A DNA stretch of 64,000 nucleotides from positions 1-64,000 of the forward strand of contig CASFPN010000031.1 of assembly GCA_949296425.1 (NCBI GenBank). Direction: 5' to 3'. The stretch comes from an uncultured bacterium. GTDB lineage: Bacteria > Cyanobacteriota > Vampirovibrionia > Gastranaerophilales > Gastranaerophilaceae. How positions within the stretch are numbered: position 1 is the first letter of the stretch; every line of letters starts with the position of its first letter. The position numbers and the translations under genes were made by a program. The notes under the pieces are model-generated. The model made no database searches and was not told where the DNA came from. It saw only the letters and a list, made by a program, of their open reading frames with translations. Shown one piece after another: positions 30,543 through 53,501 of this stretch.

Positions 30543-31568
30543 TTATATACATGAAAAAAGTTGCATTTCAACAATTTTTTTACAAATCCTTACAGTATTT
30601 AATGCAGCTCCTATACGAAGGTTGTCTGCAACGCACCAGAGAGATATGCCATGTTCAAAAGCCAGATTTTTTCTTATTCTTCCGACAAAAACAGGGTTAA
30701 CACCTGATGCATCGTATGTTGTAGGATATTCAAAATTGTCGGGATTGTCAATAACCTGTATGCCGAATGAATTTTTTAATATTTGACGCACTTCATCAGG
30801 TGTAATTTCGTTTTCAAATTCAATATCAACGGCTTCCGAGTGTCCGTTGTAAACAGGAACGCGTGCTGCCGTACAGGATATCGGCAAATCATCAGGCAAA
30901 TGAAGAATTTTTTTTGTTTCATTCACAACTTTCATTTCTTCTTTTGTGTAGCCGTTTTCACAGAAGACGTCAATTTGCGGGATTACATTAAAGGCAATTG
31001 GTTTTTTGAAGCATTTGTTTTCAAAAATTTTACCTTCAAGCTTTGATTTTGTATTTTCCGTTAATTCGTTAATAGCTGCAAGCCCTGCTCCTGATACTGC
31101 CTGATAAGTCGATACAATAAGTCTTTTCATCGGATTTTTATCAATTAGAGGTTTTAAAACAAGCATTAATTGAGAAGTTGAACAGTTTGGATTAGCGACA
31201 ATACCTTTATGCCACTTTAAATCATCATCATTAACTCCTGCAATAACAAGCGGAACATCTTTGTCCATTCTGAAAGCTGACGAATTATCAACAAGAACAC
31301 CGCCGCGTTTTACAATTTCCGGTGCAAAAATTTTTGATGTGGAAGCGCCTGCCGATGCCAGAACGATATTTATTCCGTCAAAGCTTTCTGGTTTTGCTTC
31401 TTCAACAATATAGGTTCTGCCTTGAAATTTCAGTTTTGTTCCTGCTGATTTTGCACTTGACAGAAATTTTATTTCATTAAAATCGACTTGTAGTTCGTCA
31501 ATAATTTTTGTAATTTCTCTGCCTACAACTCCTGTTGCGCCTAAAATTGCTATGTTTGGTTTTATCAT
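30543..31568 (-). CDS. asd: Aspartate-semialdehyde dehydrogenase
   Basis: A 341-residue NADP-dependent dehydrogenase converting aspartyl phosphate to aspartate semialdehyde for lysine/diaminopimelate, threonine and methionine. Visible are the Rossmann loop ILGATGVVGREI (residues 8-19), the catalytic Cys in VANPNCSTSQLM and AYNVIPQ-type IAFNVIPQIDVF. DapB, a later enzyme of the branch, is encoded on the same strand at 32531-33277, with a prepilin gene between them. The start has GGGAGGGGATAATG context. Confidence 0.93.
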   Translation of the reverse strand: MIKPNIAILGATGVVGREITKIIDELQVDFNEIKFLSSAKSAGTKLKFQGRTYIVEEAKPESFDGINIVLASAGASTSKIFAPEIVKRGGVLVDNSSAFRMDKDVPLVIAGVNDDDLKWHKGIVANPNCSTSQLMLVLKPLIDKNPMKRLIVSTYQAVSGAGLAAINELTENTKSKLEGKIFENKCFKKPIAFNVIPQIDVFCENGYTKEEMKVVNETKKILHLPDDLPISCTAARVPVYNGHSEAVDIEFENEITPDEVRQILKNSFGIQVIDNPDNFEYPTTYDASGVNPVFVGRIRKNLAFEHGISLWCVADNLRIGAALNTVRICKKIVEMQLFSCI

Positions 31569-31651: not shown

Positions 31652-32496
31652 TTATTCCATAATATATAAAGGGGAGCATCCCCATCCAGAGCCTGTTTCA
31701 CAGTCCTCTTTATAATTATCACGTGTGATAAGGGTACAATAATTAGGACAGCTGCATCCGTTTGCACTATTGCCTGTGTCGTTTGTCCAGAAAACAGGTG
31801 CAAATTGATTGTCTTTTATAAAGAAATAAAATATATCTCTGCCAACAGTATTAGGTTTTTTATATCCGTTTACGTCTATAAAAACTTCATGTGTACAATT
31901 AAAATTTATCATTGCACCGTCGGGCAATAAAAATGTAAGAAGTCCATAGCCTTTTGTTCCGCCATTCAATCCTAATGGTTTTCCTGTTTTATCAAACCAT
32001 TCATTAGTGGCATGCCAGTGAATATCTTCATTTTTGGGAAAATTTGATGATGATAATGTATAATCGGCATTGTTTGATATTTCATTGCATTTTAATCCTG
32101 AGTCGACGGCTTTGAGTTGTTCGCCTATTTTGCAGACATAGTATATCATTTTTTCCCAGCCATACTCCTGAGGATTAATATTTTGGCCTTCTTTAACGGA
32201 AACCATTTGCAATGCCTGAGCAATAACCGAGTATTGTTTTTTGAACATTGCCTTGAATTGCCTGTCCTGAGTTTTAGTAATGACTGATGGCAGTGTCAAT
32301 GCCGCAACAACCCCGATAATTCCGAGGGTGATTAAGACTTCGGCAAGTGTAAATCCAAATTTACGGCATATAAAGTGATGTTTCATATCACAATTATGAT
32401 ATATTTTAAAACTCCTGTCAAGCAAACAGTCAAAAAAGTTAGTTCCTCCTACCTTTTCGGGGGGGGGGCAACTTTCAGCTTTTTATTCTCAACCAT
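31652..32496 (-). CDS. Type II/IV pseudopilin with poly-C tract; frame interrupted (phase-variable candidate)
   Basis: Prepilin-like protein with the core GFTLAEVLITLGIIGVVAALTLPSV, a G/F prepilin-peptidase site and Glu5, and a Cys-rich globular C terminus (NYKEDCETGSGWGCSP). A strong start, AAGGAG 8 bp before ATG at 32496, is separated from the core by a run of exactly ten C (minus strand) at 32459-32468. With ten C the reading stops after 15 codons; with eleven or eight C it runs unbroken into the pilin, giving about 281 residues with a long leader. An internal ATG at 32386 (11-residue leader) could still give some product. A paralogue at 52744-53501 has the same structure. The gene lies just downstream of dapB. 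Confidence 0.75.
32459..32468 (-). repeat. Poly-C/G tract, 10 nt, contingency-locus candidate
   Basis: Ten consecutive G on the plus strand (C in the coding strand), within the leader-coding part of the prepilin gene. Nothing like it occurs elsewhere in this AT-rich window except at 53465-53474 in the paralogous prepilin gene. Confidence 0.9.
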
Positions 32497-32530
32497 AGTT
32501 AAAACTCCTTTTTTATTTATTATTTACAAT

Positions 32531-33277
32531 TTACATTATAATGTCAAGTCCGTAAACAAAGTCGTTATTTTTATAAATATGCTTAACCGCAAGCAGCACA
32601 CCCTGCATATAGCATTTTCTGTCCATTGAGTCATGTCTGATTGTCATAATCTGACCCGAAGAACCAAAAATAACTTCCTGAGATGCAATATAACCGGGCA
32701 TCCGGACAGAATGAATATGAATATTTGAGTAAGAAGTTCCGCCTCTCGCACCTTCAATTGTTTCGGTTTCGGGACAATTTCCTTTTGTAAAATCGCCTTT
32801 GACCTCCGCCATCATTGCGGCTGTTTTAATGGAAGTTCCTGACGGCGCATCTTTTTTCTGATTGTGGTGAAGCTCTATGATTTCCGCATTATCAAAATAT
32901 TTGGATGCCTGACGGGCAAACATCATCATCAAAACAGCTCCGGTTGAAAAATTCGGGGCAATAAGGCAGCCTGTATTTTTGTCTTTTGATAAACTCTTTA
33001 ATTCCGCGATTTGTTCATCTGACAGGCCAGTTGTGCCGATTACGATTTTAATTCCGTTATTTAAGCAGTATTTTGCATTTTCAAAAATGGATTTCGGCTG
33101 GGTAAAGTCAACTAATATATCTATCTGACAGGATTTATTCGCTTCTTCAATAGTTTTGAATTCTCCGCCTGCAATATCAATTTGTGCCGTTAGTTCAGTA
33201 TCCGGGCAATCATGTACTGCCTGAACAACTTCTTTTCCCATTTTTCCTAAAGCACCGCAAACCGCAACTTTTATCAT
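32531..33277 (-). CDS. dapB: 4-hydroxy-tetrahydrodipicolinate reductase
   Basis: A 248-residue reductase of lysine and diaminopimelate synthesis. The nucleotide loop VAVCGALGKMGKEVVQA is at residues 4-20, the catalytic HHNQKKDAPSGTS motif (about residues 142-154) is complete, and VIGTTGLSDEQ is family-typical. AAGGAGAAAAATTT precedes the ATG. It is followed after 34 bp by the prepilin gene at 32496, so the two may share a transcript. Confidence 0.93.
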   Translation of the reverse strand: MIKVAVCGALGKMGKEVVQAVHDCPDTELTAQIDIAGGEFKTIEEANKSCQIDILVDFTQPKSIFENAKYCLNNGIKIVIGTTGLSDEQIAELKSLSKDKNTGCLIAPNFSTGAVLMMMFARQASKYFDNAEIIELHHNQKKDAPSGTSIKTAAMMAEVKGDFTKGNCPETETIEGARGGTSYSNIHIHSVRMPGYIASQEVIFGSSGQIMTIRHDSMDRKCYMQGVLLAVKHIYKNNDFVYGLDIIM

Positions 33278-52743: not shown

Positions 52744-53501
52744 TTATTCCATAATATATAAAGGCGAGCAGCCCCAGCCGAAGCCTGTTTCACAGTCTTC
52801 TTTGTAATTATCTCTTGTAATTGCTGTGTGATAACCTGATGTACAGCCGTTTATATTATTTCCGCTTGTATAATCAAAGAAAACCGGAGAATAATTATTT
52901 TGGGTCAGTCCGAAATAAAATATGTCACGTCCGATAGTATTGGGTTTTTTATACCCGTTTACATCTATAAAAACTGTTTTCCAGCAGTTGAAGTTTATTA
53001 AAGCACCATCAGGCAAAAGAAACGTAAAATTTTTATAACCCGGATTGAGTCGCATTGGTTCTTTCTTTTTATTAAACCATTGATCATTTTTATGCCAGGT
53101 TATATCTTCATTAAATTTTGTATTCCCAGCCATTACGGCTGACATGTTTTCATCTGTACATATGACTCCTGCTTTTAAATACTTCAGTTCTTGACCAAGT
53201 TTACAAATAAAAGGCTGCATTACTTTGATATAAGTTGCTGTTGAAAATGAGCTGCCTAAATTTAAATTTTCCCCGTCTTTTGCGTATACCATCTGTAAAG
53301 CCTGTGCAATAGTTGAATATTGCTTTTTAAACATAGCTTTAAACTGTCTGTCCTGCGCATCATTAATTACTGCCGGCAAAGTTATAGCAGCAATACCCCC
53401 TATAATTCCAAGTGTAATTAAAACTTCAGCTAGTGTGAAACCACTTCTCGTACGCGAGTTTTTCGGGGGGGGGGCACTTCTAAAGCTTTATTGAATAACA
53501 T
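52744..53501 (-). CDS. Type II/IV pseudopilin with poly-C tract; frame interrupted (phase-variable candidate)
   Basis: A paralogue of the pilin at 31652-32496, with the same C-terminal blocks (NGYKKPNT.GRDIFYF, NYKEDCETG.GWGCSPLYIME). GGAGGT lies 6 bp before the ATG at 53501. Nine codons later comes a run of ten C (coding strand, 53465-53474). With ten C the frame ends after 23 codons. With eleven (or eight) C it gives a classical prepilin: a 21-residue leader ending RTRSG directly before FTLAEVLITLGIIGG, then 232 more residues. No alternative good start exists inside, so expression should depend on the tract. It lies just upstream of dxr and next to the hydrogenase gene. Confidence 0.8.
53465..53474 (-). 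repeat. Poly-C/G tract, 10 nt, contingency-locus candidate
   Basis: Ten consecutive G on the plus strand, in the leader-coding part of the pilin gene; same length and position as in the paralogue at 32459-32468. Confidence 0.9.

Follow-up and report, generated by a model that had tools for sequence, protein, structure and literature searches.

Systems in which homopolymeric tracts or silent copies vary surface fibres are known from several bacteria. In Neisseria, a poly-G tract near the start of the type IV pilus gene pilC switches expression by frame, while the pilE/pilS system works by gene conversion from promoterless donors among many pilin copies. The pilin family described here resembles pilC in its tract near the start and its putative frame switch, but pilC comprises one or two tip-adhesin genes whereas here tens of pilins carry the tract. 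It resembles pilE/pilS in having many copies of which few are presumably expressed, although the pilS donors lack promoters and here each copy has its own start. In Bifidobacterium breve, sortase-dependent pilus genes carry a G-tract slippage switch, with G10 and G11 occurring as population mixtures (Penno et al. 2022, PMC9187656). As far as the available part of that report describes it, the likeness is close, with G10/G11 in pilus genes of a gut commensal, an annotated length that is out of frame and a one-base slippage that fuses two frames. That part deals with two loci, in a Gram-positive organism, whose pili are of a different type from the type IV pilin family here, and contains neither a two-orientation repeated motif nor an internal leaderless promoter, which are present here, the latter as a candidate (PMC9187656). 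In Campylobacter jejuni, the tract lengths are G8 257, G9 214, G10 431, G11 77 and G12 9 (PMC4965091). The likeness is that tens of G/C tracts, 8-12 long, lie within genes, many of which are surface genes; the C. jejuni tracts are spread over 28 varied genes with a wide range of lengths, whereas here one family has about 90% at exactly 10, a comparison of colonies with paralogues that serves as a rough yardstick only (PMC4965091).

On present sequence evidence, the family appears to be a known kind of switch that is unusually large and uniform, with a motif present in both directions and, as a candidate, a leaderless bypass. If this is right, few single families known to us have as many putative tract switches; these act on pili, and each cell of these uncultured gut Gastranaerophilales would obtain its own combination of surface fibres.

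The target gene lies in the window, the whole 64-kb stretch of DNA analysed here. An AAGGAG Shine-Dalgarno element, an ATG at 32496, nine codons and a C10 tract follow one another on the minus strand, 3′ of dapB. Frame reading bears out the sequence-only reading as to the AAGGAG, the ATG, the C10 at 32459-32468 and the need for 11 (or 8) C to reach the pilin core. The features, all on the minus strand, are as follows.

32531-33277: dapB, the upstream neighbour.
32519-32547: candidate upstream promoter, TTGACA (32547-32542), 17-nt spacer and AATAAT (32524-32519), matching 11 of 12 consensus positions.
32505-32510: Shine-Dalgarno element AAGGAG of the upstream start, from the sequence.
32469-32496: upstream ATG (32496-32494) with the first nine codons (MVENKKLKV) and one further base, by translation.
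32456-32480: orientation-independent DNA motif AGCT-N6-TG-C10-GAA, by motif comparison.
32459-32468: C10 tract, where 11 (or 8) C would fuse the upstream start with the pilin core, by frame reading.
32449-32451: TAG closing the 10-C frame 7 nt past the tract, giving a 15-residue product.
32354-32458: insert between tract and core, open in the 11-C frame only, by frame reading.
32393-32421: candidate internal promoter, TTGACA (32421-32416), 17-nt spacer and CATAAT (32398-32393), by promoter scoring.
32375-32391: dyad GTGATATGAAACATCAC covering the internal start, kept in paralogues on comparison, a candidate repressor operator.
31652-32386: pilin from the internal ATG, with leader MKHHFICRKFG, core FTLAEV... 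and a 233-residue mature part, by translation.
30543-31568: downstream neighbour of the semialdehyde dehydrogenase family, probably asd.
52744-53501: paralogue of the same layout, with ATG at 53501, C10 at 53465-53474 and no start codon between tract and core.

With 10 C, the upstream frame has 15 codons and ends at the TAG at 32451-32449; with 11 (or 8) C, it is open into FTLAEVLITLGIIGVVAALT and through to the stop at 31652. The pilin core, FTLAEVLITLGIIGVV, begins 105 nt past the tract. The upstream candidate promoter overlaps the end of dapB, and promoter-like sites in the target-gene region overall are no commoner than in shuffles. C runs of 8 give six matches in the 64-kb window against 0.18 expected, and none of 100 shuffles reached six. 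An AGGAGG at 32449-32444 was rejected as the ribosome binding site of a TTG start at 32425, the spacing being about 18 nt as judged by eye. The relative that had been credited with an identical ten-C tract, one base short, is found at 53 kb; the target mature pilin is 58-61% identical to it, and its syntenic copies in two other genomes (G023 and G008) also have C10 and are one base short. A dapB-linked gene in a further genome (G031) has C10, one base short, without an internal start. Both loci of the sequence-only reading are thus real, but they are not a pair, being 2 of about 60 pilin genes so built.

The target protein matches PF07963 (N_methyl) above the cut-off and has the type IV prepilin methylation motif, with a G/A-F cleavage site and glutamate at +5; FTLAE is invariant or nearly so across 21 relatives. 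The AlphaFold2 model of the target pilin (mean pLDDT 70.7) predicts an N-terminal helix of 53 residues (14-66) and six strands, and a fold search of the PDB at E 0.001 with this model of moderate quality matched no solved pilin structure. The 11-residue leader from the internal ATG would fit the short basic leader of type IV prepilins.

The promoter-like site before ATG 32386, repeated in many paralogues, supports the suggestion that this ATG may allow some constitutive pilin with a leader of 11 residues. TTGACA-N17-CATAAT ends 6 nt before this ATG and the predicted +1 falls on its A, which would give a leaderless mRNA. When promoters were scored at gaps of 0-30 nt before in-frame ATGs, a gap of 6 was found in 11 genes of this genome and 17 of a second one (G025), and any other gap in at most one gene; the paralogues share ancestry, so this peak reflects conservation and not independent origin. 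The second His codon near the internal start is CAC in 23 cases and CAT in 5, whereas CAT makes up 80% of the His codons in pilin bodies, which suggests a constraint at the DNA level. The dyad at the internal start region is GTGATATGNNAYATCAC, and the reversed pattern, taken as a control, has no matches in four genomes. ATA replaces ATG in a few of the internal-promoter copies, so the internal start is not universal. At the target gene ATG 32386 is probably real, and a promoter-like site exactly 6 nt upstream, repeated in paralogues, makes a tract-independent short-leader product plausible; the tract of this gene probably adds a long-leader form and does not decide all expression.

The genome that holds the window is a Gastranaerophilales MAG of 2.0 Mb, 99.95% complete, with 97 N_methyl pilin cores and 73 exact-C10 runs. 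A tract lies within 900 nt upstream of the core in 59 of the 97 pilins, and the gene order is constant, with a start, about 8-20 codons, the tract, an insert of 10-631 nt and the core. Tract genes occur in either orientation, the mRNA containing C10 (as in the target gene) or G10. When both types are read along the C strand, they have an AGCY in common, placed about 8-12 nt ahead of TG-C10-GA. It is present in 24 of 25 C-type genes (0.5 in shuffles) and in 66 of 73 G-type genes (3.9 in shuffles). Since the codon phase of AGCY is not constant, the constraint acts on the DNA rather than the protein. Of 60 tract genes of this genome, 26 have no possible start in the insert and, on their sequence, would depend wholly on the tract. 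Of the genomes searched, TG-C10-GAA is present in 27 of 33 from the genus and absent from all 25 outside it. A separate search, of named genomes, located the motif in Candidatus Gastranaerophilales MAGs and in 'Fusobacterium sp. CAG:439'. The tract-pilin pattern is confined to this genus. Scans of viral contigs matched neither the motif nor the pilin, so there is no phage link, and a search of the available literature on pilins or phase variation in Gastranaerophilales found nothing relevant. If the switch reading is right, most pilins of the genus will probably be missed or cut short by gene callers.

Several features can be read directly from the DNA: how the genes are laid out, how tract lengths are distributed, the register of the frames, the selection on the fused frame and the promoter spacing. 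In two genomes sampled by C-run alone, without length bias (this one and G025), 89 of 98 tracts have length 10 (53/58 and 36/40), and 79 of the 98 have length 10 and are ON at 11 (46 and 33 per genome); five of the eight tracts of 11 are in frame. Across the 21 same-genus genomes common to three length searches, 243 tracts have ten, 22 eleven and 8 nine bases. The offset of the tract to the second frame is constant, with 129 of 142 genes from 22 genomes ON at lengths 2 mod 3, a set in which many loci were found with C10 patterns, so that lengths are biased and registers are not, and in which the genes are related rather than 142 independent events; yet the insert lengths vary widely and the register holds. 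Between tract and core, the ON (11) frame of the two genomes has 3 stops over 4,737 codons, where the other two frames have 394 and 418 (this genome, 3 in 3,532 against 307 and 247; G025, 0 in 1,205 against 87 and 171). A sister species (G002) has 0 in 782 against 37 and 74. An ON frame so nearly free of stops shows that selection has acted on the fused protein. The stop of the 10-frame sits close past the tract, at a median of 11 nt, while the median for the other closed frame is 25 nt. The register pattern breaks in the sister species, where tracts are mostly 11-16 and occur in all three frames; of its 22 genes, 14 need -1, 4 are in frame and 4 need +1. The close paralogues L136/L151 and L051/L108 differ as 10 versus 11, which changes the frame. 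MutS and MutL are both present, and loss of mismatch repair was rejected as the cause of the tract pattern.

With somewhat better than even confidence, we favour a genus-wide slippage-switched pilin family that is OFF at 10 and ON at 11, with an internal bypass promoter in a subset. Translation from the upstream Shine-Dalgarno element and ATG would run across ten C, or ten G in genes of the opposite orientation. At the resident length of 10 it would meet a stop about 15-17 codons in (OFF), and replication slippage to 11 would join the start to the core and yield a long-leader prepilin (ON). Since most of the about 60 such genes would be OFF at a given moment, the small set of pilins expressed would differ from cell to cell. 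In the subset that includes the target gene, a second promoter in the insert, overlapped by the operator-like dyad, would produce a leaderless mRNA from the internal ATG and a short-leader prepilin at any tract length; in these bypass genes the tract would add the long-leader form rather than decide all expression. Slippage in living cells would change expression, both starts would be used and the candidate operator dyad may bind a repressor. Selection for sparse expression may be what maintains 10 as the OFF length. An assembly consensus records the commonest length, so a uniform 10 need not mean uniform cells.

Slippage is preferred because of the lengths of 11-16 in the sister species, the paralogues that differ by one base, the absence of frameshift stimulators and the B. 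breve analogue. Tracts of 11-16 in three frames are what slippage predicts and what a single programmed shift does not. The narrow tract lengths weigh against slippage, as does the presence of MutS and MutL, which should damp one-base changes. These two points speak for programmed recoding, as do the requirement for +1, which is the same in either orientation and across some 20 species, and the closed-frame stop directly past the tract, which could mark a fixed recoding site. Here RNA polymerase would add a base at a fixed 10-mer, or the ribosome would slip back by one, in a small fraction of events, and every pilin would be made at a low level with a long leader. We consider this rather unlikely: an upstream Shine-Dalgarno-like stimulator is found in only 3 of 79 genes, the downstream fold has a median z of 0.04 (no excess structure), 14 of the 22 genes of the sister species need the opposite change, and the in-frame length of 11 recurs in scattered genes. 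We also hold it unlikely that the fixed C/G ten-base tract in its orientation-independent motif is a genus-wide RNA-level recoding signal by which about fifty pilins per cell are made at a low level, with leaderless internal starts in a subset. Because the tracts are uniform in length and share one register although mismatch repair is intact, slippage equilibrium and recoding can be separated directly. The sequence-only reading had offered a shared slippage equilibrium as one of two options, and this is the better of them in modified form, 10 being the usual length genus-wide and the flanks being kept so that 11 is ON.

Its other option, a systematic base-calling error, is barely credible in the wider form of a sequencing or assembly error with true tracts of 11. 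One more base would indeed put nearly all genes in frame, but the same assembly also has calls of 9, 11 and 12, assemblies from several independent projects agree on 10, and the sister species reports 11-16. A quite improbable reading makes the out-of-frame genes a silent store from which sequence passes by recombination to a few expressed pilins, with AGCY-TG-C10-GA as the recombination site. One DNA motif in both orientations, mosaic and shared insert modules and the many paralogues are consistent with such donors, but each copy keeps its own start, a Shine-Dalgarno-like site and an open fused frame, none of which a silent donor needs. The sequence-only reading also foresaw that the tract might be irrelevant, with the protein always made from ATG 32386. 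The strong internal promoter match with its +1 on the ATG favours this, yet we regard it as highly improbable, as the 11-frame from tract to internal ATG has no stops in 371 and 468 codons, many paralogues have no internal start at all, and the dapB-linked gene of G031, in the corresponding position, lacks one.

Beside these genes, C10 runs also occur in genes that have no pilin core by the core search (L066 at 1502, L061, L083 and L096), and the L066 run is in frame inside a long open frame. The near-identical minor-pilin-like genes L047, L051 and L108, near contig ends, have G10 or G11 and a CA deletion beside the tract, and their frames differ. The inserts of G-type genes (L105, L110, L064 and others) contain incomplete pilin cores repeated in tandem and in frame (GATHVDLPVSQRKYVFTLAK is one), together with intergenic repeat sequence, and are almost always free of stops. 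Several contigs (C6, C24, C25 and C40) break off no more than about 250 bases from a pilin core, and the repetition of the core is the probable cause.
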